A stretch of DNA of 64,000 nt from Salinarchaeum sp. Harcht-Bsk1 (GTDB lineage Archaea; Halobacteriota; Halobacteria; Halobacteriales; Salinarchaeaceae). The notes beneath the pieces were generated by a model, which was not told the origin of the DNA, did no database searches, and saw nothing but the letters and a program-made list of their open reading frames with translations. Position numbers and translations under genes: made by a program. Position 1 is the first letter of the stretch, and each line of letters starts with the position of its first letter. The stretch is taken from the NCBI RefSeq assembly GCF_000403645.1, contig NC_021313.1:1383014-1447013 (forward strand), read 5' to 3'. Shown piece by piece: positions 5,878 through 34,816 of this stretch.

Positions 5878-5879
5878 CC

Positions 5880-8039: not shown

Positions 8040-8042
8040 CTC

Positions 8043-12377: not shown

Positions 12378-12428
12378 GGACGGTGATGGCGGAGCAGGGT
12401 TCCATCCTCCCGCGCGAGCCGCCAGTGG

Positions 12429-12438
12429 CCTTATTGAT
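12429..12438 (+). promoter_or_regulatory. TATA-like promoter of the nuclease-helicase pair
   Basis: The box CCTTATTGAT lies 25-34 bases upstream of the ATG at 12463, the haloarchaeal spacing for a leaderless transcript. It supports that start and suggests that the nuclease and helicase can be transcribed apart from the pglX-pglZ-pglX operon. Confidence 0.5.
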
Positions 12439-12462
12439 CATGGCTGTCGTTTGCAGTTGGTA

Positions 12463-12879
12463 ATGAGTCGGAACGCGGGGCACGTCGACGGGGAACTGGC
12501 GGAGTTCGCCGTCGCCGCCGATCTCGTGGCGAAGGGGTGTCGGGTGTCGTACACCCACGGCCAGTACAAGTACGACCTGATCGCAGACAGGGACGATGAG
12601 TTGCTGCGAGTCCAGGTCAAGAAGGCCAACCAGGACAACGACAAGCCCTGGAAGTACAGGATCTTCACCGACCGGTACGAAGAAGGGGACGTCGACCTCT
12701 TCGCCGGATACATTCCTGCGCTGGAGGAAACGTTCTACACGACGTTCGAAGACGCGGGATCCAGGTTCAGGATCAACACCAAATCACGCGAGCAGTTGAT
12801 ACCCGAAAACCGGAGCCAAGCGAAGCTGCTCGATGACTTCACGTTCGAACGGGCCGTGACGGAACTGGAACGGGAGTAG
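12463..12879 (+). CDS. PD-(D/E)XK-like nuclease of the group I intron endonuclease type
   Basis: A 138-residue protein. It has the spacing of small PD-(D/E)XK nucleases: Glu11 in the first helix, Asp38 in YKYDLIAD, and Gln51-Val-Lys53 in LLRVQVKKA. The QxK form in place of (D/E)xK is known in the PDDEXK group that includes intron-associated and resolvase-like enzymes. The start at 12463 fits the promoter spacing; the upstream TTG would add only four residues. It ends 6 bases before the helicase start, so the two are probably co-transcribed and may act together on DNA. It is not a standard BREX gene; its cargo role in the locus is inferred. Confidence 0.6.
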   Translation: MSRNAGHVDGELAEFAVAADLVAKGCRVSYTHGQYKYDLIADRDDELLRVQVKKANQDNDKPWKYRIFTDRYEEGDVDLFAGYIPALEETFYTTFEDAGSRFRINTKSREQLIPENRSQAKLLDDFTFERAVTELERE

Positions 12880-12885
12880 CCACAG

Positions 12886-15792
12886 ATGGATTCACTCAAC
12901 CCTGGCGACGCCGTGCGCCTCAATGGGACCCCAGCCGAGGTCATCAAAACGTACGCTGTTGGCGATCTCGAGTACATCCGAGCATACGTCGATGGAGACG
13001 GCGTGAAGACCGTCTGCATCGACGACGTCGAGATCGAGCCGAAGCCGGACCAGCTCGCTGCGCTGGACCCCGCCACTGCCGACGACCTCCACCCCGACCA
13101 CGACGCCGTCTCCGCCGAGTGGTTCGATCTCCGTTCTCAGGCCCTCCAGCTCCAGATCGCCCACGAGCAGGGGCAACTGCTCAGCATCTCGAATTCACGG
13201 GTTCGCCTCGAGCCCTACCAGCTCGCCGCCGTCAACTGGGTGATGCAGAAACTCCGGCAGCGCGCCCTGATCGCCGACGACGTCGGGCTCGGGAAGACCA
13301 TCGAGGCCGGCCTGATCCTCAAGGAACTTACCGCTCGAAATCGGGCCGATCGCGTCCTGTTCGTCGTCCCCGCGCACCTCCAGAAGAAGTGGATTCGAGA
13401 TATGGACCGCTTCTTCGACGTCGACCTGACGCCCGCCGATCGCCAGTGGGTCGAGGGCGAGCGTCGACGGCTCGGCGAGGAGGCCAACATCTGGGACCAG
13501 GACCACCAGCGGATGGTTGCCAGCCAGGCCTTCCTCCGCCAGGACGAGTTCCAGCCCGCGCTCGATGAGGCCTTCTGGGACGTCGTGATCGTCGACGAGG
13601 CCCACAAGGCCGCCAAGCGGGGCGAGTCGCCCAGCGAGACCTCGAAGATGGTCGAGCGGGTCGCGGGCAACTCCGATTCCTGCCTCCTGCTCAGCGCGAC
13701 GCCACACGACGGCAAGGGCGAGGCGTTCCGCTCGCTCGTCGAGTACGTCGACCCGTTCCTCGTCGCCGAGGATCGGGAGCTCTCGAGGGAGGCGGTCGAC
13801 CGGGTGATGATCCGCCGCGGGAAGCAGACGATCTACGACGACGACGGCGAGCGGATCTTCCCGGATCGGACGGTCAACACCGTTCCCGTGGAGATGACCC
13901 ACGAGGAGCGGCAGTTCTACCAGGCCGTCACGGAGTACGTCCAGCACGTCTACAACCGCTCCGAGCAGCTCAACGAGCCCGCAGTCGGGTTCGCCATGGC
14001 GCTGATGCAAAAGCGCCTCGTCAGCAGCGTCGGCGCGATCCAGGCCACGCTCAGCCGGCGGCTGGGCGACCTGGTCGAGGAGCAATCGACCGCCACCAGT
14101 CTGTCTGCGGAAGCCACGGCGTATCTCGACGGCGAAGATCTCGACGAGGCGGACAAGCAGGCCGCAGAGGACGAACTGTCGGCGCTGACCGTCACCGAGA
14201 GCGACGCCCAGCTCGAGGAGGAGATCGAGACGCTCCGCGACCTGGTTGGCCTCGCCGAGAACATCTCGGTCGACTCCAAGGGCCAGAAAGTTCGCCGCTA
14301 CGTCCAGCAGTTGCTCGAGGAGCAGCCCGACGAGAAGCTCCTGCTGTTCACGGAGTACCGCGACACGCTCGACTACCTCCTCGAACTGGTCGAGGACGAA
14401 CCCTGGGCCGACGAAATCCTGGTCATCCACGGCGACGTCGACAAAGCGGACCGCGCCCGTATCGAGGACGAGTTCAACCACGGCGAGTCACGGCTGCTGT
14501 TCGCCACCGACGCTGCCAGCGAAGGGATCGACCTGCAGCACAGCTGCCACATCATGGTGAACTACGAACTGCCGTGGAATCCGAACCGCCTCGAGCAACG
14601 GATCGGCCGAATCCATCGATACGGACAGGACAAGGAGGTCAAGGTCTGGAACTTCTCCTTCGAGGACACTCGCGAGGGCGAGATCTTCGAGATGCTCCAG
14701 AACAAGGTCGAGAGCATCCGCGGCAAACTCGGGAACACCGCCGACGTGCTAGGGATGCTCGACGACGTCGACGTCGACTCCCTGATCATGGAATCGATCC
14801 GGAACGAGGAGCCGCCGGGGGCGACGAAGGAGGAACTCGAGGAGCTCATCGACGAGCGACAGCGGACGCTCCAGGAGTGGTACGAACGCAGCCTCATCGA
14901 CACGAGCACGTTCGACCAGGAGAGCCGCGAGAAGATCCAGGAAGTGATGGATCAATCCGAGGACGTCTACGGCTCGGAGGCCGATATTCGCGAGTTCGTG
15001 GAACGGGGTGTGGAGGCCCTCGGTGGCAGCGTGGAGACGACCGGTACCGATCTCTTCCGGGCGGAACTCCCCGCATCGCTCCGGACGGGAATGGAGGAGG
15101 AGTACGGGCCGTTCACGTTCAGCCGTGACTTCGCGATGGACCACGACGGGATCGAGTACGTATCGCCGGACGACGACCTCGTCCAGCGCCTCATGCAGGA
15201 GGTGCTCGAAAGCGACCGGGGGGACGTTGGGCTGAAGCTGCTCCCCTTCGTCGACGAACCGGGGATCGTCTACACGTATCGCCTGAGGTTCGAAGACGGT
15301 ACTGGGGCGGTCATCCGAGAAGAATTGCTCCCGGTGTACGTCGATGCTCGCCACCAGGACACCCGACAGCGATTGGGAGAGCGTATCGTAGCGGGCGATA
15401 GCGTGACAGGCACTCACGACGCGGACCGTGTCCGATCGCTCATTCAGAGCCAGGAACAGTTGCGATCGGCCGCGGATCGCTACAGTAGTCAGACGGTTCG
15501 CTCCCTCCGTGAGGAGCTACACGAACGACGACGATCGGAGACGCAGCAGGAACTCGACGATCTGGAAGCATACGCCGACACCGAGCGCGAGCGGATTCGA
15601 GCGTTCATCGACGAGTACGAGCGGAAGGCCGACGCTGGCACGGACATGGACATCGCCATCCGAGGACAGCGAGATCGACTCAGCAAACTCGAACAGCGGA
15701 TCGAGGACCGTCGGGAGGAACTCGAGCGGAAAGCACAGGTCATCTCCCTTGCACCCGAAGTCGAAAGTATCTGCCTCGCGCTCCCAGTGTGA
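12886..15792 (+). CDS. brxHII: SNF2-family DNA helicase/translocase, BREX BrxHII type
   Basis: A 968-residue superfamily 2 protein. Motifs in order: EPYQLAAVNW (Q-like motif), DDVGLGKTIEAG with GLGKT at residues 134-138, DEAH at 237-240, LSATPHDG (motif III), LLLFTEYRDTL (motif IV), and FATDAASEGIDLQ followed by QRIGRIHRYGQ (motifs V and VI). The last 200 residues are charged coiled coil. BREX type 5 and type 3 loci carry an SNF2 helicase, BrxHII, in the place where type 1 has BrxL. A DISARM-type SNF2 protein is the alternative, but the neighbouring pglX and pglZ favour BREX. Confidence 0.8.
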   Translation: MDSLNPGDAVRLNGTPAEVIKTYAVGDLEYIRAYVDGDGVKTVCIDDVEIEPKPDQLAALDPATADDLHPDHDAVSAEWFDLRSQALQLQIAHEQGQLLSISNSRVRLEPYQLAAVNWVMQKLRQRALIADDVGLGKTIEAGLILKELTARNRADRVLFVVPAHLQKKWIRDMDRFFDVDLTPADRQWVEGERRRLGEEANIWDQDHQRMVASQAFLRQDEFQPALDEAFWDVVIVDEAHKAAKRGESPSETSKMVERVAGNSDSCLLLSATPHDGKGEAFRSLVEYVDPFLVAEDRELSREAVDRVMIRRGKQTIYDDDGERIFPDRTVNTVPVEMTHEERQFYQAVTEYVQHVYNRSEQLNEPAVGFAMALMQKRLVSSVGAIQATLSRRLGDLVEEQSTATSLSAEATAYLDGEDLDEADKQAAEDELSALTVTESDAQLEEEIETLRDLVGLAENISVDSKGQKVRRYVQQLLEEQPDEKLLLFTEYRDTLDYLLELVEDEPWADEILVIHGDVDKADRARIEDEFNHGESRLLFATDAASEGIDLQHSCHIMVNYELPWNPNRLEQRIGRIHRYGQDKEVKVWNFSFEDTREGEIFEMLQNKVESIRGKLGNTADVLGMLDDVDVDSLIMESIRNEEPPGATKEELEELIDERQRTLQEWYERSLIDTSTFDQESREKIQEVMDQSEDVYGSEADIREFVERGVEALGGSVETTGTDLFRAELPASLRTGMEEEYGPFTFSRDFAMDHDGIEYVSPDDDLVQRLMQEVLESDRGDVGLKLLPFVDEPGIVYTYRLRFEDGTGAVIREELLPVYVDARHQDTRQRLGERIVAGDSVTGTHDADRVRSLIQSQEQLRSAADRYSSQTVRSLREELHERRRSETQQELDDLEAYADTERERIRAFIDEYERKADAGTDMDIAIRGQRDRLSKLEQRIEDRREELERKAQVISLAPEVESICLALPV

Positions 15793-21760: not shown

Positions 21761-23335
21761 ATGGCATACGATGGGCCGAAAATCTTTCTGGCGCCCTACG
21801 GAAGCAACGCGGCGCAGGAGAACTTCCAGAAGACAGTTCTGGAAGGCATTTCGGCCGAACGTATAGCTTCGTTTACTGATTTCCCCAACGAAGAGACCGA
21901 CGTCGTCCGGTTGTGGGGGACGAAGTCGACGGTCAAAGGATCGTGGAGAAAAATAGAGCCCGGTGACTACCTCCTATTCTACCTCGATGGAAGCTATACG
22001 CACTCCGCGGAGGTTCTGGGAACCGAGGAGAACGAAGAGCTAGGTCGCGATATCTGGCCAAATTTCGACGAAGAACCCTGGAGTCAGATCATCTATCTGG
22101 AGGCCCCAGTAGCGATCGACGTTCCGTCGGAGAACGTCCACGAACTCGCTGGGTACGATCGGGACCACCCACAAGGATTTAGCTCGCTCCACGATCTGGG
22201 CGTCGGCGGCATTCGCGGACAGTACGGTTCGGTCGAAGCGTTCGCCAACGGAGGGGATCCTATCGAACGACGGTCGGCGGTACGAGCTGGTGTTAGCGAT
22301 GCCGACAGCGCGATCGACGTTCATAGGGAACCCGAAGTCGATTTCGGGGACAACCTCCTCGATGGGCTCTACTTCCCAGACGGTCGAGGCGAAGAAATTC
22401 TCGACCAGGTGGCATCGGCCTTCGACAGTGGAAAGCACGTTATCTTCACCGGACCGCCGGGGACCGGAAAGACCGAACTCGCACGCCGAGTCTGCAGCGA
22501 ACTTGTCGAAGACCACCCCGACGTATACTCGGGGCACCAGATAACGACCGCTACGGCCGACTGGTCCACCTTCGAGACTGTCGGCGGCTACATGCCCACA
22601 GAATCCGACGGCGAGAACCTCTCGTTCGAACCGGGACAGGTTCTCCGCCGGTTCAAGCAAGACGGACAGCAACGCAACGAACTGCTCGTCATCGACGAGA
22701 TCAATCGCGCCGACATCGACAAGGCATTCGGTCAGTTGTTCACGCTGCTTTCCGGTCAATCGGTCCAACTCCCCTACCGCAAACAGGGGGAGGAGATTGT
22801 CGTTCGACCTGCAGACGCTGACGACGGCGAAGCCGCGGATCACGAGTACGTCATGCCGGCGTCATGGCGTCTCATCGCGACGATGAACACGTACGACAAG
22901 ACCTCGCTATACGAACTCTCCTACGCGTTCATGCGGCGCTTCTCGTTCGTACACGTCGACGCGCCGACCGTCCCAGAGGATCGCGAGGATCGCCTCGCAC
23001 TCCTCGCCGAGTACACCGCTGCGTGGGACCTCGATCCAGACGAGGCGATCCTCGACGCAGTCGCAGAGATCTGGCGTGTGCTCAACAGCGGGAACGAGGA
23101 CCGGAAAATCGGGCCGGCAATCGTCCAGGACATCCTCAGAGGGATCGAACACGGGCCGCACAGAGACGAACGTACTGCAATCACTGCAGCCGTCGCCAAT
23201 TACGTACTGCCGCAGCTGGAAGGGACCCGTCGTCAAGAGACAATCGTCAATCGGCTTTCGAGAGTCGAAGCGGTCGATCGAACGCGCCTGATCGATCTCT
23301 CGGAGGACGTACTGCAGGTCGAGATCGATGGATAG
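21761..23335 (+). CDS. McrB-like AAA+ ATPase with N-terminal EVE-like domain
   Basis: A 524-residue protein. Residues 1-135 resemble an EVE/PUA-like reader domain (WRKIEPGDYLLFY...SAEVLG), a fold that recognises modified bases. After a linker comes a McrB-type AAA+ module: Walker A GPPGTGKT at 231-238, Walker B LLVIDEINRAD near 310, and the McrB-type sensor IATMNTYD...LSYAFMRRFSF. Such proteins are the NTP-driven motor and recognition subunit of type IV restriction enzymes that attack modified DNA. The start is fixed by a TATA box at the right distance. The stop overlaps the next gene by 8 bases. Codons are somewhat more AT-rich than in the flanking genes, suggesting acquisition. Confidence 0.85.
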   Translation: MAYDGPKIFLAPYGSNAAQENFQKTVLEGISAERIASFTDFPNEETDVVRLWGTKSTVKGSWRKIEPGDYLLFYLDGSYTHSAEVLGTEENEELGRDIWPNFDEEPWSQIIYLEAPVAIDVPSENVHELAGYDRDHPQGFSSLHDLGVGGIRGQYGSVEAFANGGDPIERRSAVRAGVSDADSAIDVHREPEVDFGDNLLDGLYFPDGRGEEILDQVASAFDSGKHVIFTGPPGTGKTELARRVCSELVEDHPDVYSGHQITTATADWSTFETVGGYMPTESDGENLSFEPGQVLRRFKQDGQQRNELLVIDEINRADIDKAFGQLFTLLSGQSVQLPYRKQGEEIVVRPADADDGEAADHEYVMPASWRLIATMNTYDKTSLYELSYAFMRRFSFVHVDAPTVPEDREDRLALLAEYTAAWDLDPDEAILDAVAEIWRVLNSGNEDRKIGPAIVQDILRGIEHGPHRDERTAITAAVANYVLPQLEGTRRQETIVNRLSRVEAVDRTRLIDLSEDVLQVEIDG

Positions 23336-24668
23336 GGCCGAACTGATCGACTCGGTGGCGGAGGACCTCTTCGCCTACGTGATGCACGGCACGATGCCCG
23401 AAACGCACGTCGCCGAGCAGATCAAACCGAACGGTCTGGACGAGCGGTTCGAGGACTTCGACGCCCTCGTCGACCTCCATTTTATCCTCAAACCGGAAGT
23501 GATCGACTTCGTCGAGGCCCTACCGCATCGAATTCGAAGCATCAAGACGCAGACGAAGAACGTCTCGACGGCGAGTCGAGGCGAGATCGACGGCCGGATC
23601 GACTGGGAGTCCACGATGACCACTCGAGCGTCGAGTGCGCCCGGCGATCGATCACTGTTCGTCTGCGATACGCGTCACGAGAGCTACGACGTCGACGAGA
23701 ACGTCGTGCTCAAGCGGCTCCTCTCGTTGATCTACACGACGCTCGACGACGCCGAATACTACCTCAAGCAGGAATATGACTGGGTGACGGATCGTTGGCA
23801 AGAGAATCTCGAACTCGTCGATCGAATGCGTGATCTCTTCGAGCGGAACGTCCACGTCACGAGAATTCGTGCACCGGAGCGGTACGAACCGACGGATCGT
23901 ATGTTGCAGCGTGCCGATGGAGCACGGAATGAAATCTACCGGGAGGCTGCGGCCTTGCTTCGGGATCACCAAGCGAGCCGTCGTGGGGACGTGGATGCAA
24001 TTCGAACACTACTCGCAGACACGGCGATCACGCCGGGAGACGAGGAGACGCTCTTCGAACTGTACGTCCTCTTCCAGTACGTCAACGCCATCGAAGACCA
24101 CAAAGACGGTGATGCAACCGTCTCGACGATCCAGACAGATCGGCAAGAGGTGGCCCGAATTGAGAGCGAGGACGGCTCCGACGTGGTCCTCTATCACGAT
24201 AACTCGGGGCGCGACGACATTTCTTTCATCACGCATCCGCGGGAGAAGGCCGAGAGCGACCTCACGCGATCGGAGCGAATCTACCACGAGACCCAGAAAA
24301 TCACCAACCGATACTTCAAAGACAGCGACTTTCAGGTGCGGTCGAATCGGCCGGACGTCATCGTCCTCGAGATTCAGCGAGACGACCAGTACGAATATCT
24401 GGTGACCGAGGTGAAAAACTCGATTGGAAGGCGAACGATCCGGAATGGAATCACCGAGACGCTGGAGTATCTTGCATTCCTTCGACGGGACGACCAACTC
24501 GTCTACGAAGAAGAGACCCCATTCGGCACGGGCTGGAACGGTGTCCTCGTGGTTCAGGACATGGAAGAGCAAGACACTGCATCTCTGCACGAGCAGGAAA
24601 CCATCCGAATTCTCCAAGCCTCCGAACTCGATACTGCGATTCCGGAGTTATTGGAGCGCGTGCTGTAG
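23328..24668 (+). CDS. McrC-like partner with PD-(D/E)XK nuclease domain
   Basis: A 446-residue protein overlapping the McrB-like gene by 8 bases. The first 270 residues are helical and not recognised with confidence; they are in the position of the McrC/DUF2357-type N-terminal part that docks on the AAA ring. The C-terminal third has a nuclease core: RPDVIVLE with Asp343, then YEYLVTEVKNS with Glu361 and Lys363, a canonical PD...ExK arrangement. It is therefore the likely cutting subunit of the module. It is not a close McrC match, so specificity may differ from methylcytosine-dependent McrBC. Confidence 0.75.
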   Translation: MDRAELIDSVAEDLFAYVMHGTMPETHVAEQIKPNGLDERFEDFDALVDLHFILKPEVIDFVEALPHRIRSIKTQTKNVSTASRGEIDGRIDWESTMTTRASSAPGDRSLFVCDTRHESYDVDENVVLKRLLSLIYTTLDDAEYYLKQEYDWVTDRWQENLELVDRMRDLFERNVHVTRIRAPERYEPTDRMLQRADGARNEIYREAAALLRDHQASRRGDVDAIRTLLADTAITPGDEETLFELYVLFQYVNAIEDHKDGDATVSTIQTDRQEVARIESEDGSDVVLYHDNSGRDDISFITHPREKAESDLTRSERIYHETQKITNRYFKDSDFQVRSNRPDVIVLEIQRDDQYEYLVTEVKNSIGRRTIRNGITETLEYLAFLRRDDQLVYEEETPFGTGWNGVLVVQDMEEQDTASLHEQETIRILQASELDTAIPELLERVL

Positions 24669-24954: not shown

Positions 24955-25574
24955 CGCCCAGTCCGAGGCGAGTGCGGTCGGCGCCGAGCGACGGGACTGG
25001 CGGCGTCCGGCCCGCCTACTGACGAGACGCACCCGCAACGAGGCAGCGGCGCTGCCCCGATCAACTGGCCCCGGAGCGCTTCGAGGAGCCCGGCGGTCGC
25101 GTCGAGTTACAGAGCGTCCACCTGACGACAGTGATTATAGAAGCAGGCTTACTAATACGGTATTCCATCAGTAGTCTGTAATCTTTGAAAGGGCGAGTCG
25201 GATTCGAGATACCGTAGAATCTGGTGTCGAGATGGGTTTGGACCGCGGAATCTCGTATATTGACCAATACCGAAATTTACACAGTTTCTTCGGGAATCGC
25301 AGAGATATATAGTAATATCACCGGATTTCGGAGCCATTATCCACGATTGATTCGTATTCGCCCGATTATAATTCGTATCGCAATAATAGCGCCGGTACTA
25401 AACATCAGTGGTATATGAGTTATTTACTATTGTCATATTTCGGCACCAGTGCAGCGCTCAGCAGACGCTGCGCTGATCACCCGGCCACGAAATTCGGTAG
25501 ACCTATTTACAGCGGTACCGGTGTAATGGCCATGCGACCGACGGACGAACGCCGACGGCCGACGCCCAGGAACG
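24955..25574. other. 620-base intergenic region, AT-rich in its centre
   Basis: No convincing gene. From about 25130 to 25440 the base composition falls far below the local average, with several TATA-like stretches (around 25300-25320 and 25360-25435) and loosely repeated ATTCGTAT strings. Short frames here have no recognisable motif. The right end carries the palindrome at 25507-25526. The region may be an old insertion scar or a multi-promoter regulatory region for rdfA. Confidence 0.5.
25507..25526. promoter_or_regulatory. 20-base near-perfect palindrome upstream of rdfA
   Basis: TTACAGCGGTACCGGTGTAA reads nearly the same on both strands; only the symmetric positions 6 and 15 break the dyad. 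It overlaps a TATA-like CTATTTAC and lies 49 bases before the rdfA start. A copy differing at one base is at 29546-29565. Confidence 0.6.
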
Positions 25575-26189
25575 ATGAGTGACGATCTGCCGCCGGCCGA
25601 ACGGAGCAAAGTGGGCCGCCTGATCGCGGAGAACGACCTGTCCGGCGCCGGTGAGACGCTGGAGCGCCGGTGGACCGGCGAGGCTGGCGAACGCGCGAGT
25701 CTGCGCGATCTGGCCGACTGGTTCAACCAGCGGGTGCTGGAGGCAGTCCTGGCCGAGCACGACCGGCAGCCTGCCGCGGAAACGACCGAGACGACCTATC
25801 GGCTCCTCACCGACGACGAGGTCGGCCCGACGGCGCAGACACAGACCAGGCGCGACCTCGAACGGAAGGGGATCGACGTCGACGACCTCGAAGCCGACTT
25901 CGTCTCCCACCAGGCGATCCACACGTACCTGACGTCCTACCGGGACGCGTCGCTCGAGGACGACGTGCGCTCGTCGAGCCTGGAAGACGTCGAGGAGGCC
26001 ATCGATCGGCTCCAGAGCAAGACCGCGACGGTCACGAAGTCGAACGTCGAGCGACAGCGGGCGGCGGGGAACGTCGACGTCGGGGAGGTCGACGTGATCG
26101 TGACGATCGACGTCGTCTGCACCGACTGTGGCGACTCGTTCACGTTCGGCGAACTGATCGAGGCAGGCGGCTGTAGCTGCGGCGACTGA
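25575..26189 (+). CDS. rdfA: RdfA family (rod-determining factor) protein
   Basis: A 204-residue protein. The N-terminus SKVGRLIAENDL...LERRWTGE...SLRDLADWFNQRVL and the C-terminal cysteine cluster CTDCG...GGCSCGD match the haloarchaeal RdfA family, described as needed for rod shape in Haloferax. The four C-terminal cysteines probably bind zinc. The next gene encodes the archaea-specific SMC-related protein with which RdfA genes usually pair. Paralogues of this pair are scattered in haloarchaeal genomes and plasmids, so this copy need not be the shape-determining one. Confidence 0.8.
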   Translation: MSDDLPPAERSKVGRLIAENDLSGAGETLERRWTGEAGERASLRDLADWFNQRVLEAVLAEHDRQPAAETTETTYRLLTDDEVGPTAQTQTRRDLERKGIDVDDLEADFVSHQAIHTYLTSYRDASLEDDVRSSSLEDVEEAIDRLQSKTATVTKSNVERQRAAGNVDVGEVDVIVTIDVVCTDCGDSFTFGELIEAGGCSCGD

Positions 26190-26258
26190 CGCCCCGGGTG
26201 GCCGCCGGATCGTCCCGGACCGGTAGGTTTTATGCCGAGAACCGACGTGGAATATACA

Positions 26259-28226
26259 ATGAGTTCGCAGGGAGCCTCGAACGCGTACTACGACGTCGAG
26301 GTCGAAAATATCGGGGGCATCGAGGAGTCCCACCTGCGGTTCGCGCCGGGGATCACGATCCTCTCGGGCCGAAACGCGACCAACCGAACCTCCTTTCTAC
26401 AGGCGATCATGGCCGCCCTGGGAAGCGATCGAGCCTCGCTCAAGGCCGACGCGGAGGCGGGTACCGTCTCGCTGACCGTGGACGGCGAGACGTACGACCG
26501 CGAACTGTGGCGCGAGGGCGACGCCGTGTTGACGGACGGAGAACCGTATCTCGAAGAGCCCGACATTGCCGACCTCTTCGCGTTTTTGCTGGAGGACAAC
26601 GAGGCCAGACAGGCCGTCGAGCAGAACGGCGACCTGCGCGAGGTGATCATGCGGCCGGTCGACACGGACGCGATCCACGCGGAGATCGACGAACTCACCG
26701 CCGAGAAGGAGCGACTCGACGACGAGATCGCCGACCTCGACGAGGCGAAGCGCCGACTGCCCGAGCTCGAGGCGGAACGGTCCCGGCTGGAGGACGCCAT
26801 CGAGGAGAAGCGCGACGCGCTGGCTGACGCGGAAGCCGAGATCGACGAGGCCGACGGCGGGATCGAGGAGACGCGAGAGACGAAGGACGAACTGGAGGGG
26901 AAACTCGCGGAACTGCGGGCGGTCAGATCCGAGCGGGAGGACGTCCGCTACGACCTCGAGACCGAGCGCGAGAGCCTCGCGTCGTTGCGGACGGAACGCG
27001 AGGACCTCGAGGCGGAACTCGCGTCGCTGCCCGAGATGCCGGCGGGCGAGCACGGGGAGATCGAGGCGCGCCTCGAAGCGCTCCGGGACCGCAAACAATC
27101 GATCTCGTCGGACCTCTCACAGCTCCAGACCATCGTCCAGTTCAACGAGGAACTGCTCGACGGTGCGGACAACGACCTGGTCGAGGCCGTCACCGAAGGG
27201 GACGCCGCGGACGGTGCCGAGTCGAGGTCCCCCACCGACAGACTCGTCGATGACGCCGAGCAACTCACCTGCTGGACGTGCGGCAACACCGTCGAGCGGG
27301 CGCACGTCGAGTCGGTCGTCGACGGCATCGAGGAGCTCCGCCGTGAGAAACTGGCGGAGCGCAGCGACGTCGACGAGGAGATCGGCGACCTCCAGTCCGA
27401 GAAGCAGGAGCTCGAGCGCCAGCAACAGCGCCACGAGAAGCTCCAGCGGACCCTCGATCGACGGACCGAGGAGATCGAGGACACCGAGGAGCGGATCGAA
27501 TCCCTCGAGGCGCGGAGCGAGGAACTCGCCGACGAGATCGGATCGCTCGAGGCGGAGATCGAAGCGCTCGAACGGGAGGAGTACAGCGAACTGCTGGAGC
27601 TACACACGGAGGCCAACCAGCTAGAGTTCGAGATCGACCGCCTGGAGGACGAACTGGCCGCGACCACCGGGGAGATCGAGTCGATCGAGGAGCGCCTCGA
27701 CCGGCGAGCCGACCTCGAAGACGAGCGAGCGGACGTCGTCGCCCGGCTGCGCGACCGCCGGACGCAGATCGACCGGACCGAACAGCGCGCCGTCGAGTCC
27801 TTCAACCATCACATGGACGACGTGCTGAACGCCCTGGAGTACGAGAACGTCGAGCGCGTCTGGATCGAACAGCGAGAACGCGAGGTGCGGGAGGGCCGTC
27901 GCACCGTCGCCAGGAGCACGTTCGAACTCCACGTCGTGCGGGAGACCGAGTCCGGCGAAGCCTACGAGGACACCCTGGAGCACCTGAGCGAGAGCGAGCG
28001 GGAAGTGATCGGCCTCGTGTTCGCGCTCGCGGGCCACCTGACCCACGAGGTGTACGAGGAGATGCCGCTGATGCTCCTGGACTCCCTCGAGGCGCTCGAC
28101 AGCGAGCGCATCGAAGCGCTCGTGGACTACCTCGAGGAGTACGTCGATTCGCTGGTGATCGCACTCCTCGAAGAGGACGCGGCGGTCTTCGAGGACGCCG
28201 AGGACGTGACGATCTGTGAGTTCTAG
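26259..28226 (+). CDS. archaea-specific SMC-related protein (Rad50/Sph-like ATPase)
   Basis: A 655-residue protein with SMC layout. The N-terminal head has GRNATNRTS at residues 37-45 in place of the Walker A GxxGxGKS; the Lys is replaced by Arg, which is typical of this family. Long coiled coils run from about 130 to 530 and are split by a zinc-hook-like CWTC at 338-341. The C-terminal head has HLSESEREVIGLVFALAGH (signature motif) and MPLMLLDSLEAL (Walker B-like). The ATG at 26259 was preferred over 26232 because a TATA-like GGTTTTATG lies 28-35 bases before it. It follows rdfA by 69 bases. ATP hydrolysis may be weak or lost. Likely role: chromosome organisation or cell shape with RdfA. Confidence 0.85.
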   Translation: MSSQGASNAYYDVEVENIGGIEESHLRFAPGITILSGRNATNRTSFLQAIMAALGSDRASLKADAEAGTVSLTVDGETYDRELWREGDAVLTDGEPYLEEPDIADLFAFLLEDNEARQAVEQNGDLREVIMRPVDTDAIHAEIDELTAEKERLDDEIADLDEAKRRLPELEAERSRLEDAIEEKRDALADAEAEIDEADGGIEETRETKDELEGKLAELRAVRSEREDVRYDLETERESLASLRTEREDLEAELASLPEMPAGEHGEIEARLEALRDRKQSISSDLSQLQTIVQFNEELLDGADNDLVEAVTEGDAADGAESRSPTDRLVDDAEQLTCWTCGNTVERAHVESVVDGIEELRREKLAERSDVDEEIGDLQSEKQELERQQQRHEKLQRTLDRRTEEIEDTEERIESLEARSEELADEIGSLEAEIEALEREEYSELLELHTEANQLEFEIDRLEDELAATTGEIESIEERLDRRADLEDERADVVARLRDRRTQIDRTEQRAVESFNHHMDDVLNALEYENVERVWIEQREREVREGRRTVARSTFELHVVRETESGEAYEDTLEHLSESEREVIGLVFALAGHLTHEVYEEMPLMLLDSLEALDSERIEALVDYLEEYVDSLVIALLEEDAAVFEDAEDVTICEF

Positions 28227-28370
28227 GCGGACGTCCGGACGACGTGGACGCCTCCAGGCACCCAGTGATCCGCCTCGTGCGATTCGGCGAAGCGCACGGG
28301 AGCGCCTCGAGGCGGCAGTGAACGACGGGAATCGGGGAAGCTAAGGGACGGGCGCACACTCACCAGACGC

Positions 28371-29444
28371 ATGGACACCGACGCCTCGCGGTACCACGCG
28401 TTCGTTGGGACGTACACCGATGGCGACAGCGACGGCATCTACACCTGCTCGCTCGATCCGACGACCGGCGTGCTCGAACGCGTCGGCGTCACCGACGCGG
28501 GCGATGACCCGTCGTTCGTCGCGGTCCACCCGAGCGGCGACTACCTCTACGCCGTGAACGAGGTCGACGACGGCGCCGTCACGGCCATGGAGATCGACCG
28601 GGAATCCGGCGACCTCTCCGTGCTCAACCGGGTCGTCACCGGGGGCGGCGCGGACCCGTGTTACTGCGAGGTCGACGCCACTGGCGAGCATCTCCTCGTC
28701 GCCCACTACACCGGCGGCAGCGTCGCGGTCGTCCCCATCGGCGAGGACGGCCGCGTCGACGATCCGACGCACCTGGTCGAGCACGAGGGCTCCGGCCCGA
28801 ACGAGGAGCGACAGGAGGCCGCCCATCCCCACAGCATCCGTGCGGGGCCGGCCAACCGGTTCGTCTACGCCCCCGACCTCGGCGCCGACCGCGTGTTCGT
28901 CTACGAGTTCGACGTCGACGCCGGCCGACTCGAACCGGCCGAGCAGCCCGCCGTCGAACTCCCCGGCGGTGCTGGCCCACGGCACATGGCCTTCCACCCG
29001 GAGGAGCCACTCGTCTACCTGCTGAACGAACTGGACTCGACGCTGACCGTCCTGGAGCGCGATCCCGACACCGGCGCGCTCGAGGTCCTCGACGCCGCCT
29101 CGACGCTTCCCGATGGCGTCGACGACAACCTCACAGCCGACGTTCACGTCCACGACTCCGGCGAGTGGGTGTACGCCTCGAATCGGGGCCACGACAGCGT
29201 CGCGGTCTTCGCCGTGGGCGAGGACGGCCGGTCGCTCTCGCGTACCCAGGTCGTCTCGACGGGCGGGGAGTGGCCTCGGAACGTCGCGCTCACGCCCGGC
29301 GGCGACTACCTGCTCGCGGAGAACGCCCACACCGACGAGGTCGTCACGTTCGCGATCGATTCCGAGGACGGGACCCTCGAGCCGACCGACGACGTCGAGG
29401 CGATTCCCTCGCCGACCTGCCTGCAGTTCCTCGCCGCGGAGTGA
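28371..29444 (+). CDS. lactonase family protein (6-phosphogluconolactonase type, seven-bladed propeller)
   Basis: A 357-residue beta-propeller protein. It starts HAFVGTYTDGDSDGIYTCSLD and carries repeated blade motifs (SFVAVHPSGDYLYAVNE, NRFVYAPDLGADRVFVYEFD, PRHMAFHPEEPLVYLLNELD, EWVYASNRGHDSVAVF, PRNVALTPGGDYLLAEN). This is the Lactonase_7 family (YbhE/Pgl, carboxymuconate cyclase-like). It would open a sugar lactone to the acid, a sensible first step for the sugar-acid enzymes downstream. A box near 28338-28345 sits about 30 bases before the ATG. The exact lactone is unknown. Confidence 0.87.
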   Translation: MDTDASRYHAFVGTYTDGDSDGIYTCSLDPTTGVLERVGVTDAGDDPSFVAVHPSGDYLYAVNEVDDGAVTAMEIDRESGDLSVLNRVVTGGGADPCYCEVDATGEHLLVAHYTGGSVAVVPIGEDGRVDDPTHLVEHEGSGPNEERQEAAHPHSIRAGPANRFVYAPDLGADRVFVYEFDVDAGRLEPAEQPAVELPGGAGPRHMAFHPEEPLVYLLNELDSTLTVLERDPDTGALEVLDAASTLPDGVDDNLTADVHVHDSGEWVYASNRGHDSVAVFAVGEDGRSLSRTQVVSTGGEWPRNVALTPGGDYLLAENAHTDEVVTFAIDSEDGTLEPTDDVEAIPSPTCLQFLAAE

Positions 29445-29545
29445 CCCAAGGCCCGTCGAGCGCCGCGTTCCTCGACGCCTCTGTGGACGTTGCTACGACA
29501 GCAGAGAGTGAATGGCTCGGGGACGACTGGCGAAGCAGGTCGCCG

Positions 29546-29565
29546 TTACAGCCGTACCGGTGTAA
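29546..29565. repeat. second copy of the 20-base palindrome
   Basis: TTACAGCCGTACCGGTGTAA, one base different from 25507-25526. Here it sits in the 145-base gap between the convergent 3' ends of the lactonase and iclR genes. An extended dyad, CCGTTACA at 29543-29550 and TGTAACGG at 29561-29568, has perfect 8-base arms. No promoter is expected at this place. Confidence 0.6.
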
Positions 29566-29589: not shown

Positions 29590-30372
29590 TCAGTCGTGCT
29601 GGGCGCGCTGGTGCGTGACGTTGATCTCGATCTCGCGAGCCACGTTCGAGACGAGCTGGGGGTACTCCTCCCTGAACCGCTCCCCGCGGACGCGGTGGGT
29701 CGGGCCGGTCATCGCGAGTGCGCCGAGGACCTCGCCGGACCCCTCGTGCGTGATCGGGGCGCCGATCCCGCGCATCCCGTCGATGCGCTCCTCGTCGTCG
29801 AGCGAGAACCCACGCTCGCGGGTACGCTGAACGTCCTCGCGGAGTTCGTCCTCGTCGACGATCGTGTTCTTGGCGTGTCGATCGAGGTCGATCTCGTCGA
29901 GCACCGCCTCGAAGGTCTCCGTCGACAAGTTCGCGAGCATCGCCTTGCCGGTCGCGGTGGCGTGGATCGGGAGTTCCAGGCCGGGGTAGGAGTCCGTAGT
30001 CACGGCCTTCGACCCCCGCGCCTGGTAGACCGGAACGGAGTTGGTCCCGTAGAAGGCCGAGAGGACGGAGAGCTCCTCGGTCTCCCGGGCGAGGTTCGTC
30101 GCCGGGATCTGGCCGTGCTGGAACAGTTCGAGGTCGTCGCGAGCGTGACCGCCGAAGCGGAGCCACCGCAGCCCGACGACGTACCGGTCGCCGTCCCGTT
30201 CGACGAACCCGCGCTCCCGGAGGGTCGCGAGGTGGTCGTGGACGGTACTCTTCGAGACGCCGAGTTCGTCGGCGACCTCGGTGACCCTGGCGCCGTTGGC
30301 GTCCCGCAGGATCTCCAGGATCTCCAGCGCCGTCCCGATCGCCTTCACCCGGTCGGTCTCGCGCCCGTGCAT
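29590..30372 (-). CDS. IclR family transcriptional regulator
   Basis: A 260-residue regulator. The N-terminal winged helix-turn-helix is clear (IGTALEILEIL...VTEVADELGVSKSTVHDHLATLRERGFVERDGD), followed by the IclR effector domain with LPIHATATGKAML and RGIGAPITHEGSGEVLGAL. The ATG at 30372 begins right before the HTH and has an AT-rich box (CTTAGTT on the plus strand) at about -25; the longer frame up to 30486 adds 38 unconserved residues and would run through the candidate binding site. IclR proteins in haloarchaea often control sugar and sugar-acid catabolism, which fits the surrounding genes. Confidence 0.88.
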   Translation of the reverse strand: MHGRETDRVKAIGTALEILEILRDANGARVTEVADELGVSKSTVHDHLATLRERGFVERDGDRYVVGLRWLRFGGHARDDLELFQHGQIPATNLARETEELSVLSAFYGTNSVPVYQARGSKAVTTDSYPGLELPIHATATGKAMLANLSTETFEAVLDEIDLDRHAKNTIVDEDELREDVQRTRERGFSLDDEERIDGMRGIGAPITHEGSGEVLGALAMTGPTHRVRGERFREEYPQLVSNVAREIEINVTHQRAQHD

Positions 30373-30759: not shown

Positions 30760-31650
30760 TTACTCGTCGAGGTACGTCAGTACGCCGTCGACGTTGAGCC
30801 GGACGAGTTCCCACGCGACGCGCTCCTCGTACAGATCGGCGTACAGGTGGTCCTCGAGCAGCGCGTCGACGATGGCCGCGGTGTCGTCGTGGCGCTCGTG
30901 CAGTTCGGCGACCGCCTCGACCCACTCATCGAGCACCGTGCGATACTCGGCGATCGCCTGCTGGGGAGCCGTGTGTTCGCCGTAGTGCGGGAAGTAGATG
31001 GCGTCGAGTTCGCTGTCGGCGAAGCCGTCGAGGCTCTCCTCGATCGCGTCGGGATCGAAGTCCGGTGGGGGCGTGCTCGGGACGACCGTGTCGTCTACGT
31101 ACTCGCCGCACTCGTCACCGGGGAACAGACAACCGTTGTCGCCGTCGTAGTACGCGACCTGGTGGGGTGCGTGACCCGGGGCGTGGACGACCTCCAGCGA
31201 CCGTGCGCCGAGGTCGATCGTCTCGCCGCCCTCGAGGACGCGGATTCGGTCGCGAGGGATCGGCCGCATCGTCCCGTAGTCGTTTGCGAGATCGCCGACC
31301 GCTTCGTGGACGCCCTCGACGAGTTTCGGAACGACCTCCGGGTCGGAGATGAAGTCCACGCCGTACTCGTGACAGAGCACGGTCGCGTTCGCACAGGCCT
31401 CGACGATCTCGGCGGCACCCCCCGCGTGATCCATGTGGATGTGCGTGAGCGCGACGTACTCCACGTCCGCGGGATCGAGGCCGATCTCGTCGAGGGCGTC
31501 GAGAATGTGCGGCGCACCCGTCGAGAGTCCGGTGTCCACGATCGTGGGCTGTTCGTCGTCGACGACGTAGGCGGCGGTCCGCTCGGGAATCCCCATCTCG
31601 TGGGTGTCGACGACGTACGTCTCGGGACTCACGGCGACTGGTTCGACCAT
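30760..31650 (-). CDS. MBL-fold metallo-hydrolase
   Basis: A 296-residue metallo-beta-lactamase fold protein. The HxHxDH motif is THIHMDHAGG with His70, His72, Asp74 and His75. Further ligands are LCHEYG (His near 100), the His of APGHAPH, the Asp of FPGDECG and the His of FPHYGEH, so the dinuclear metal site looks complete. The start at 31650 fits a minus-strand TATA box (GGTTTATG, about 31674-31683). The substrate is unknown; lactones, thioesters and glyoxalase-type substrates are all possible for this fold. It is divergent from the sugar-acid operon that starts at 31799. Confidence 0.85.
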   Translation of the reverse strand: MVEPVAVSPETYVVDTHEMGIPERTAAYVVDDEQPTIVDTGLSTGAPHILDALDEIGLDPADVEYVALTHIHMDHAGGAAEIVEACANATVLCHEYGVDFISDPEVVPKLVEGVHEAVGDLANDYGTMRPIPRDRIRVLEGGETIDLGARSLEVVHAPGHAPHQVAYYDGDNGCLFPGDECGEYVDDTVVPSTPPPDFDPDAIEESLDGFADSELDAIYFPHYGEHTAPQQAIAEYRTVLDEWVEAVAELHERHDDTAAIVDALLEDHLYADLYEERVAWELVRLNVDGVLTYLDE

Positions 31651-31798
31651 ACCCGGCGTCACCACGCTCGCGGGCATAAACCTGTGGCCGGGCGGAGCGC
31701 TGACCGGGCGGGGCGGTCACTGGCCAGCGCGGTGACCCGGGACGGCGCTGCCGCCGGACCAACATTTATCGTACCGCATTACCGATTCAGGCCACACG

Positions 31799-32584
31799 AT
31801 GGCTACCAAGAGACACGCCGAGCGGACTGCGATCGTCACCGGCGCATCCAGCGGGATCGGTCGTCGCATCGCACTCCAGTTCGCCGAAGAGGGCGCGAAC
31901 GTCGTCTGTGCCTCCCGGAGCAACGAACCCCACCAGGGGGTACACCACGACACCGACGTCGCGAGGCCCACCGAGCAGGTGATTCGGGAGGACTACGACG
32001 GCGACGCCATCTTCGTCTCGACGGACGTGAGCGACCCCGACGAGGTCCGGAATCTCGTCGACGAGACCGTCGATCGCTTCGGCGGCATCGACGTGCTCGT
32101 CAACAACGCCGGCGTCTTCGTCGAGGGCGACTCCCAGGAGACCTCCGTCGACGACTGGCAGTTCATGCTCTCCGTCGACCTCGACGGCACGTTCTACTGC
32201 TGCAAGTTCGCGATCCCGCACCTCAAGGAGTCCTCGGGCCACATCGTCAACATCGCCTCGGTGAACGCGACCGAAGGCGGCTCCGGACCCGCCTATGCGG
32301 CGGCGAACGCCGGGCAGGTCAACCTCACCCGCGACCTCGCGGTCGAACTCGGTCCCCACGACGTCAACGTCAACTGCCTCTCGCCGGGCTACATCAAGAC
32401 GCCGATCCAGGACTACCAGGACGAGGAGAGCATCCAGATCTCCCGGGAGCAGACGCTCCTCCCCGAACTCGGCGAGCCAGAGGAGGTCGCGACCGTCGTG
32501 ACCTTCCTCGCTAGCGAGGAGGCGAGCTACGTCCACGGCGCCGACATCTACGTCGACGGCGGGTGGGCAGCCCACCGGGTCTGA
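31799..32584 (+). CDS. short-chain dehydrogenase with altered catalytic Lys
   Basis: A 261-residue SDR. The Rossmann motif TGASSGIG is at residues 14-21, NNAG at 102-105, the catalytic Ser near 154 (NIASVNA) and Tyr166. The usual YxxxK is YAAAN here: residue 170 is Asn (AAC), one base from AAG for Lys. All other family features are intact, including the C-terminal ASYVHGADIYVDGG. The loss of the Lys should impair proton relay and cofactor ribose binding, so the enzyme may be slow, altered or inactive. TATA-like ATTTATCG lies 28-36 bases before the ATG. It heads an operon with the kinase and PdxA2-like genes and probably oxidises a polyol or sugar acid. Confidence 0.85.
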   Translation: MATKRHAERTAIVTGASSGIGRRIALQFAEEGANVVCASRSNEPHQGVHHDTDVARPTEQVIREDYDGDAIFVSTDVSDPDEVRNLVDETVDRFGGIDVLVNNAGVFVEGDSQETSVDDWQFMLSVDLDGTFYCCKFAIPHLKESSGHIVNIASVNATEGGSGPAYAAANAGQVNLTRDLAVELGPHDVNVNCLSPGYIKTPIQDYQDEESIQISREQTLLPELGEPEEVATVVTFLASEEASYVHGADIYVDGGWAAHRV

Positions 32585-32586
32585 CC

Positions 32587-33834
32587 GTGTCCTACCTCGT
32601 CGTCGCCGACGACCTCACCGGTGCGAACGACACCGGTGCCGCGTTCGCCGCCACGGGCCAGGAGACGGTGATCGAGATCGAGGGCGGTGGAGATGGACGC
32701 GAGGACGCTAGCGATGCTGCCGTTCGGGTCGTCAACACCGACTCACGCTACAGCGATCCGGCGACCGCCGCCGAGCGAGTCCGATCGGCCGTCGAGCGTG
32801 CGCCCGACGCCGACGTCTACAAGAAGGTCGATTCGACGCTCCGGGGGAACCTCGTCGCCGAGATCGACGCGGCGATGGCGGCCAGCGGTGCGGACCTCGC
32901 GATCGTGGCCCCGGCGTTCCCGGCGACCGGCCGGATCACTGTCGGCGGCTACCACCTCGTCGAGGAGACGCCGGTGGCTGAGACCGCGGCTGGCCGCGAC
33001 GCCAAGGGGCCGACGACGTCCCACGTGCCGACGCTCCTCGAGGCGTCGTCGTACCCGGTCGTCCACCGGTCGCTCGACGACCTCGGCGAGTCTGTGGCGC
33101 TCCGGGCGTCCTTCGAGGAACTGGCGGCCTCCGGCGACGGCGCCCTCGTCGTCGCCGACGCGACCACCGACGAGCACCTCGAACGCGTGGCCGACGCCGC
33201 GGCCGCGGCGAGGGAAGCGGCGGGCATCGACGTGCTGTTCGTCGGGAGCGGCGGGCTGGCGGCCCACGTGGGAAGCGGTGGATCGAGCGCCGTCCTCGGC
33301 GTCGTCGGGAGCGTCGCCCCCGAGACGTTCGAGCAACTCGAGGCGGTCCCGGACGACCAGGTCGTTCTACTCGACTCCGAACTGGTCGTCACCGAGCCGG
33401 CGGCCGCGGTCGCCGACGCCGCCGAGGCGCTCGGGCAACGGCTCGACGACGACCAGCCGGCCGTCGTGACCGCCGCGACCGACCGGGAGGACGTCGAAGC
33501 GACGCTCGCCGCCGGTCGGGCCACGGGGCTCGACGACGAGGAGATCCGCGACCACGTCGCCGAGGCTCTGGGGAAGACGGCCCTCACCGTCGAACGGGAC
33601 CACGGGATCGACGGGCTGTTCGCGACGGGCGGCGCCGTGGCCACGGCGACCTTCGACGCGTTCGACGCGATGGGCGTCCGCCTGACGGGCCACCAGGTCG
33701 AGGCCGGTATTCCGCTGGGACGGATCCAGGGCGGACGGGCCGACGGCCTGGCGGTCGTCACGAAAGCGGGCGCGTTCGGCGGCGAAACGGCAATCGTTAA
33801 TGGACTCCGCTTCCTCGCGAGGTACGATGACTGA
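32587..33834 (+). CDS. four-carbon acid sugar kinase (tetronate kinase family, DUF1537)
   Basis: A 415-residue kinase. The N-terminal sugar-binding part has VVADDLTGANDTGAAFA and YKKVDSTLRGNL, the signature of the OtnK/DtnK/LtnK family; the C-terminal nucleotide-binding part ends TGGAVATATFDAF...RIQGGRADGLAVVTKAGAFG. These enzymes phosphorylate D-erythronate, D-threonate or related acids. The GTG at 32587, 3 bases after the SDR stop, begins the conserved text; the upstream extension overlaps the SDR. It overlaps the PdxA-like gene by 8 bases. The kinase-PdxA2 pair is the known core of four-carbon acid sugar catabolism to dihydroxyacetone phosphate. Confidence 0.88.
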   Translation: MSYLVVADDLTGANDTGAAFAATGQETVIEIEGGGDGREDASDAAVRVVNTDSRYSDPATAAERVRSAVERAPDADVYKKVDSTLRGNLVAEIDAAMAASGADLAIVAPAFPATGRITVGGYHLVEETPVAETAAGRDAKGPTTSHVPTLLEASSYPVVHRSLDDLGESVALRASFEELAASGDGALVVADATTDEHLERVADAAAAAREAAGIDVLFVGSGGLAAHVGSGGSSAVLGVVGSVAPETFEQLEAVPDDQVVLLDSELVVTEPAAAVADAAEALGQRLDDDQPAVVTAATDREDVEATLAAGRATGLDDEEIRDHVAEALGKTALTVERDHGIDGLFATGGAVATATFDAFDAMGVRLTGHQVEAGIPLGRIQGGRADGLAVVTKAGAFGGETAIVNGLRFLARYDD

Positions 33835-34816
33835 CCTGCCAGTCGTGGGCGTCACGATGGGCGATCCGGCGGGGATCGGGGCCGAAATCGTCGTCGAGGG
33901 GCACGACGAAATCGCCGCGCTCGCCGACGTCGTCGTGATCGGCGACGCGTCGGTCCTTCGCGCCGCCGTGGAGTGCTGTGACTCGTCGCTGTCCGTCGAG
34001 GCGGTCGACGACGTCGCCGAGGCGTCCTTCGCCGACGACGCCGTCAGCGTCCTCGACCTCGACCTCGTCGACGACCTCGAGTACGGGGTCATCCGCGAGG
34101 AGTACGGCGCGGCGAGCCTCGCCTACGTCGAGAAGGCGATCGAACTGGCGAAGGCCGGCACGATCGACGCGATCACGACCGCGCCCATCCACAAGCAGGC
34201 GACCCGCATGGCCGGCAGCGAGCACGCTGGCCACACCGGCCTGCTCGCCGCCCGCACCGACACCGACGTCTACTCGATGATGCTCGTCCACGACGACCTC
34301 CGCGTCTCCCACGTGAGCACGCACGTCCCGCTCCGAGAGGCCTGCGACCTGGTCACGACGGAGGCCGTCCTCGACACGATCCGCGTGACCGACGAGGGGC
34401 TCCGCCAGCTCGGCGTCGAGGAGCCAATCATCGCCGTCGCGGGACTCAATCCCCACGCCAGCGACGGTGGCCTGCTCGGCGACGAGGAGGCCGCGGAGAT
34501 CGAACCCGCCGTCGAGCGAGCTCGCGAGGAGGGCATCGACGCGGTTGGCCCGGAACCGCCGGACACCGTCTATCCGCAGGCCGCTGGCGGCGCCGCCGAT
34601 TGCGTCGTCTCGATGTACCACGACCAGGGCCACATCCCGATCAAGATGCTCGGCTTCGGCGACGGCGCCGTCACCGGCGTCAACGTGACGATCGGGCTGC
34701 CGATCGTCCGCACCAGCGTCGACCACGGGACTGCTTTCGATATCGCTGGCACGTGCCAGGCCGACCCGACGAGTCTGATCGACGCCGTCGAGGTCGCCGT
34801 CAGGGCTGCGCGGTAG
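33827..34816 (+). CDS. PdxA2-type 4-phospho-D-threonate / D-erythronate dehydrogenase
   Basis: A 329-residue PdxA-family NAD-dependent dehydrogenase. It starts VGVTMGDPAGIGAEI; the metal and substrate motifs include TTAPIHKQ, AGLNPHASDGG and MYHDQGHIPIKML, then GLPIVRTSVDHGTAFDIAG. Because haloarchaea do not use the PdxA/PdxJ route for vitamin B6 as far as is known and the gene overlaps a tetronate kinase, it should be the catabolic PdxA2, which oxidises and decarboxylates a phosphorylated four-carbon acid to dihydroxyacetone phosphate. The internal ATG at 33827 is used because the longer start lies inside the kinase. Confidence 0.87.
   Translation: MTDLPVVGVTMGDPAGIGAEIVVEGHDEIAALADVVVIGDASVLRAAVECCDSSLSVEAVDDVAEASFADDAVSVLDLDLVDDLEYGVIREEYGAASLAYVEKAIELAKAGTIDAITTAPIHKQATRMAGSEHAGHTGLLAARTDTDVYSMMLVHDDLRVSHVSTHVPLREACDLVTTEAVLDTIRVTDEGLRQLGVEEPIIAVAGLNPHASDGGLLGDEEAAEIEPAVERAREEGIDAVGPEPPDTVYPQAAGGAADCVVSMYHDQGHIPIKMLGFGDGAVTGVNVTIGLPIVRTSVDHGTAFDIAGTCQADPTSLIDAVEVAVRAAR

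Follow-up and report, generated by a model that had tools for sequence, protein, structure and literature searches.

Paired 20-bp dyads at the rdfA-asrp locus of a haloarchaeon as probable operators of an IclR-family regulator

Two near-identical 20-bp palindromes bracket the gene for rod-determining factor A (rdfA) and the adjoining gene for an SMC-related protein (asrp) in Salinarchaeum sp. Harcht-Bsk1. Judging from how such sites are distributed across haloarchaeal sequences, we consider it probable that they are operators of an IclR-family regulator, which would control rdfA-asrp and also bind 3' of its own gene. That IclR itself is the protein bound there is something we infer, as are the sign of the regulation, the ligand and any looping of the DNA between the sites. 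RdfA and its SMC-like partner are required for rod formation in Haloferax volcanii (PMC10869688). The window is the whole stretch of DNA that was analysed, 64,000 nucleotides of contig NC_021313.1, and its relevant features are as follows.

25501 to 25508, plus strand: candidate TATA box of rdfA, ctatttac, a reading of the sequence; overlaps the 5' end of palindrome copy 1
25507 to 25526, no strand assigned: palindrome copy 1, TTACAGCGGTACCGGTGTAA, exact match; proposed IclR operator that overlaps the core promoter of rdfA
25575 to 26189, plus strand: rdfA, rod-determining factor A (Pfam RdfA, 234 bits), 204 amino acids, with a C-terminal CxxC...CxC
26232 to 28226, plus strand: asrp, archaea-specific SMC-related protein (NCBIfam ASRP, 660 bits), a relative of Sph3, 664 amino acids as counted from a start at 26232, a later start being possible
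28371 to 29444, plus strand: lactonase, seven-bladed beta-propeller, 357 amino acids, inside the palindrome bracket
29546 to 29565, no strand assigned: palindrome copy 2, TTACAGCCGTACCGGTGTAA, one mismatch relative to copy 1; proposed second IclR site
29590 to 30372, minus strand: IclR-family regulator (HTH_IclR, 55 bits; IclR_C, 112 bits), 260 amino acids, the proposed binder

A first-pass annotation had described a 20-base palindrome at 25507 and a copy with one change at 29546, and we confirmed both at those positions. Its account of the surroundings was also correct: the two copies bracket rdfA, the SMC-related gene and the lactonase gene, and copy 2 lies between convergent genes. The overlap that it saw between copy 1 and a probable rdfA promoter holds up on our reading of the sequence, with the 5' end of the palindrome over the TATA-like ctatttac and its 3' edge 48 bp before rdfA begins at 25575. 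Absent from that annotation was the identity of the gene that converges on the lactonase gene beside copy 2, which encodes an IclR-family regulator with both HTH_IclR and IclR_C domains and ends 24 bp from the palindrome, on its 3' side. No other IclR_C gene occurs in the genome. In copy 1, nine of the ten pairs of the dyad are symmetric. When the complete genome (3,255,260 bp) was searched at up to three mismatches, these two copies, 4 kb apart, were the only matches; a reversed control pattern gave none in the same genome, and 100 dinucleotide-preserving shuffles of the window produced no such palindrome. A chance origin is ruled out by the shuffles together with the reversed-pattern controls.

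The wider surroundings of the locus hold several other gene groups. Beside iclR, at 30760-34816, are genes for a metallo-beta-lactamase-fold protein, a short-chain dehydrogenase, a PF07005/PF17042 sugar-binding-type kinase and a PdxA-like dehydrogenase; this catabolic cluster looks like a sugar-acid pathway, suggesting a sugar acid as the ligand of the IclR protein. On the other side, just upstream of the rdfA region (21761-24668), an McrB-like AAA ATPase and an adjoining 446-aa protein, for which there was no Pfam match, form an McrBC-like pair. Further away, at 1675-15792, lies a BREX-like defence locus that resembles BREX type 5, with two PglX methylases around one PglZ, followed by a BrxHII-type helicase (PADLOC scores of 2260, 1127, 2306 and 1899 bits).

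The palindrome is not confined to this species. In a search of 392 genomes of the same order, the motif was found far above the reversed control in some genera; in one genome (G380) there were 92 sites at up to one mismatch compared with no control matches, and the sites inspected there were intergenic in every case. From 184 distinct sites, the core of the motif is T[T/A]ACA-N3-GTAC-N3-TGT[A/T]A. The N3 positions are Watson-Crick complementary in just 29%, which points to a DNA dyad bound by protein rather than an RNA stem and rules out an RNA hairpin or terminator. A separate family of 20-mers, TTTCARCGGTATCNSTGTAA, recurs in haloarchaeal replicons of six genomes (G182, G303, G333, G360, G214 and G274), with three copies within about 5 kb in G182 C3. 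This family fits the search pattern at two mismatches and no better, and seems to be an element distinct from the dyad.

Sites are concentrated at rdfA-asrp pairs. In a sample of 80 rdfA loci from GTDB species there were 77 sites and no matches to the reversed pattern, and 57 of the 77 lie no more than 500 bp from the rdfA-asrp pair, a distance within which site density is 0.22 per kb, compared with 0.021 per kb beyond it. Thirty-nine sites precede rdfA or asrp by no more than 250 bp, nine are just 3' of asrp, and the pair is bracketed by sites in five of the 80 loci. A site is carried by 36 of the 80 loci, with about half of rdfA loci having none that we could detect. The families represented are many, and several share the same placement upstream of rdfA. 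In Halobacterium and Halorubrum the site may overlap the core promoter, 24-27 bp ahead of the rdfA start, although several Halorubrum-type sites are weaker evidence because they have two mismatches and a TATA-like core inside; at some rdfA loci the site is just upstream of a TATA-like box. G026, a genome of the same genus, shares its rdfA site letter for letter with Salinarchaeum laminariae R26. In Haloferax of the larsenii or elongans type (L278/L270), the promoter region of rdfA contains a perfect site. The sites are thus neither scattered at random nor absent near other rdfA genes, since they recur at rdfA-asrp pairs across Halobacteria, and the proposal that the palindromes are tied to the rdfA-SMC pair is supported by their recurrence in many families, sometimes on both sides of the pair.

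The dyad is also associated with IclR genes, and its presence depends on them. Haloarchaeal genomes have up to 52 IclR genes, and across 30 genomes the number of sites correlates with the number of IclR genes (Spearman 0.80, and 0.66 after genome size is taken into account). The 55 genomes that lack IclR have essentially no core-like palindromes. At the rdfA loci of 12 IclR-minus genomes, a site is present in 1 of 19, compared with 36 of the 80 loci sampled generally (p = 0.001, with related genomes in the sample inflating such p-values). In G380, an iclR gene is the immediate neighbour of 18 of the 39 perfect sites, where about 0.7 would be expected, and the neighbours of the remaining sites are mostly catabolic genes, many of them for carbohydrates. 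Around 129 IclR genes, we found a 3' site for 51, within about 600 bp and in many cases less than 100 bp away, and a 5' site for 26, the nearest about 158 bp from the gene; no site is inside any of the 129. The 3' sites are often between convergent genes and outside promoters. A test for covariation between helix-turn-helix residues and the TTACA or TAACA form of the site gave no signal. This result counts against IclR as the binder, as do the 3' position of the iclR-side sites and the rdfA loci in which we detected no site.

In genomes with a single iclR gene, ten sites are within 1.5 kb of the lone gene, compared with no control matches, and good sites are at rdfA-asrp, just 3' of iclR, or both. 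Three of these genomes (G316, G131 and G182) have two good sites each. The first is at rdfA-asrp and the second is 54-85 bp beyond the 3' end of iclR, and the distances between these two places are 16 kb, 19.5 kb and 143 kb, respectively. The gene order of the window is repeated in another genome (G212), which has a site, rdfA, asrp, a second site and a convergent iclR. In ten single-iclR genomes besides that of the window, an RdfA or ASRP gene was found within the few kb fetched around iclR.

The link between the genes extends beyond the sites. Of the 392 genomes, 325 have both RdfA and IclR, 15 have only RdfA (a class that includes three doubtful hits), 12 have only IclR, which is the least robust of these categories, and 40 have neither. 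An iclR gene is no more than 2 kb from rdfA-asrp in 23 of the 80 loci, for which the chance estimate is less than one. The possibility that the IclR proteins partnered with rdfA form a single clade was ruled out by the tree, on which the rdfA-linked label changes 31 times, with at least 18 of these changes forced by well supported branches (mean of 40 for shuffled labels). The rdfA-linked iclR genes are polyphyletic, suggesting that the link has been made many times. In four genomes of one genus (G256, G301, G333 and G360), a single in-frame TGA interrupts the IclR homologue, suggesting decay of the lone regulator there.

We considered whether a protein other than IclR might bind the dyads. 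RdfA, alone or with the SMC-like ASRP, could bind them to regulate its own expression and to tether or organise DNA; an SMC-like machine would then load or be anchored at the dyads, and iclR genes would be among its frequent clients. Sites do occur on both sides of rdfA-asrp in several loci, including the 3' side of asrp, where a promoter is not required, and the 12 genomes with IclR and without RdfA seem to be poor in sites or to lack them, which leaves room for a reading in which RdfA takes part. By contrast, an RdfA-ASRP binding site should be present at rdfA-asrp regardless of IclR, but of the 19 rdfA loci with an intact asrp in IclR-minus genomes, 1 has a site. Furthermore, the sites in G380 are often near iclR, and the 1.5-2 kb fetched around them contains neither RdfA nor ASRP; RdfA has no recognised DNA-binding domain; and a search with an AlphaFold model of RdfA (mean pLDDT 84) gave no match to a PDB fold at E<=0.001, so that RdfA as a DNA binder is not favoured by its predicted fold. 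The suggestion in the first-pass annotation that RdfA is the binder therefore finds no support in the comparison of IclR-minus genomes with the general set or in the G380 sites, and we regard this reading as distinctly unlikely. Its other suggestion, a regulator of RdfA, is the best fit, and across genomes the sites follow iclR genes. A third, unlinked regulator might instead bind the dyads and control both iclR-type catabolic modules and rdfA-asrp. A single global binder is conceivable because the iclR genes that have sites are diverse and are not tracked by the variable N3 letters, and many sites in G380 adjoin catabolic genes with no iclR. Nonetheless, sites disappear with IclR and rise in number with it, and single-iclR genomes have sites by that one gene, such that losses and gains of the third regulator would have to parallel those of IclR; we consider it unlikely.

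A further reading is that the palindromes are not operators at all. Near-identical direct copies 4 kb apart, one of them between convergent genes, could be direct repeats that a mobile element left behind, could form a hairpin or terminator, or could have arisen by chance. However, the N3 letters differ elsewhere, and copies are single or up to 143 kb apart, with positions that are constant with respect to genes and not to a segment; we reject mobile-element ends because spacer letters and distances vary whereas gene-relative positions persist. Together with the low complementarity of the N3 positions and the shuffled and reversed-pattern controls, this makes such an origin very improbable and largely excludes it. 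The arrangement is like ParB/parS in having short palindromes near an SMC-like gene. Unlike parS, there is no cluster of several copies: the whole genome has only two, 4 kb apart and at gene flanks, and elsewhere the sites are intergenic, single or loosely paired, and by catabolic regulators. There is no ParB-like gene within the bracket. A partition-like site, as had been suggested, is thus not what we see; the sites may have a DNA-organising role, which had been suggested as well.

We propose that a dimer of the IclR-family regulator would bind one 20-bp dyad, T[T/A]ACA-N3-GTAC-N3-TGT[A/T]A. IclR proteins bind as dimers or tetramers (PMC8222616), and we therefore suggest that a dimer of dimers could hold both sites. 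Since site 1 lies over the core promoter of rdfA-asrp, its occupancy would control transcription; most simply, the occupied site would repress rdfA-asrp, depending on a small molecule sensed by the IclR domain. The position of site 2, 3' of iclR, is recurrent, yet it is no ordinary operator position, and it may be a second anchor for looping or a local store of regulator. More tentatively, haloarchaea might share a three-part circuit of IclR, RdfA and the SMC-like ASRP, connected by 20-bp dyads that come in pairs, beside the shape genes and where the regulator gene ends, in which a metabolite sensor directly sets cell shape by DNA looping from one site to the other, possibly with the SMC-like partner; we see this as a possibility, and not the likeliest one.

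Haloarchaeal regulators of the IclR family, namely XacR, GacR, RhcR and MscR, have been described as activators of sugar catabolism (PMC11519228). The regulator in the window belongs to the same protein family and has a similar sugar-catabolism neighbourhood, but its sites are at cell-shape genes. In Haloarcula hispanica, a dyad on pHH400 (L298:32324) is situated 13 bp beyond the 3' end of the IclR gene HAH_RS18025, which we assigned as mscR from its place in the msc sugar-alcohol cluster. Our search of the msc divergent promoter region found no dyad, which weighs against the IclR reading. In bacteria, dimers or tetramers of IclR regulators bind inverted repeats close to the gene of the regulator, and the published consensuses include GKTYCRYW3-4RYGRAMC and TGRAACAN1-2TGTTYCA (PMC8222616). 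The haloarchaeal sites are likewise inverted repeats near the regulator gene, but they differ from the described upstream sites in their position 3' of the gene, and in a by-eye comparison of the site matrix with these two consensuses the 20-bp TTACA-N3-GTAC-N3-TGTAA dyad does not fit. No consensus spans the whole IclR family (PMC8222616), and our claim is accordingly of an IclR-type operator, not of membership in a bacterial motif class. CsmR, a transcription factor of Haloferax volcanii, affects expression of rdfA and sph3 and has the motif TATCA(N4)TGATA, for which a possible Lrp/AsnC-type comparison has been offered without similarity (PMC13286277). CsmR resembles the proposed regulator in its effect on rdfA and sph3 expression, but it has another motif and involves no IclR.

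In the paper on the ASRP family (PMC9389158), a term search turned up neither IclR nor neighbouring genes, and in the open literature, the scope of our search, there was no report of the dyad, of a known rdfA palindrome, of a XacR motif or of an IclR-RdfA-ASRP circuit. The common motif would give an operator to the catabolic regulators of this large family in haloarchaea, whose DNA sites we did not find described there, and its recurrence 3' of the regulator gene is in itself puzzling for archaeal regulation. If a dedicated regulator that senses a metabolite acts on rdfA-asrp through a defined operator, cell shape would be linked to carbon supply.
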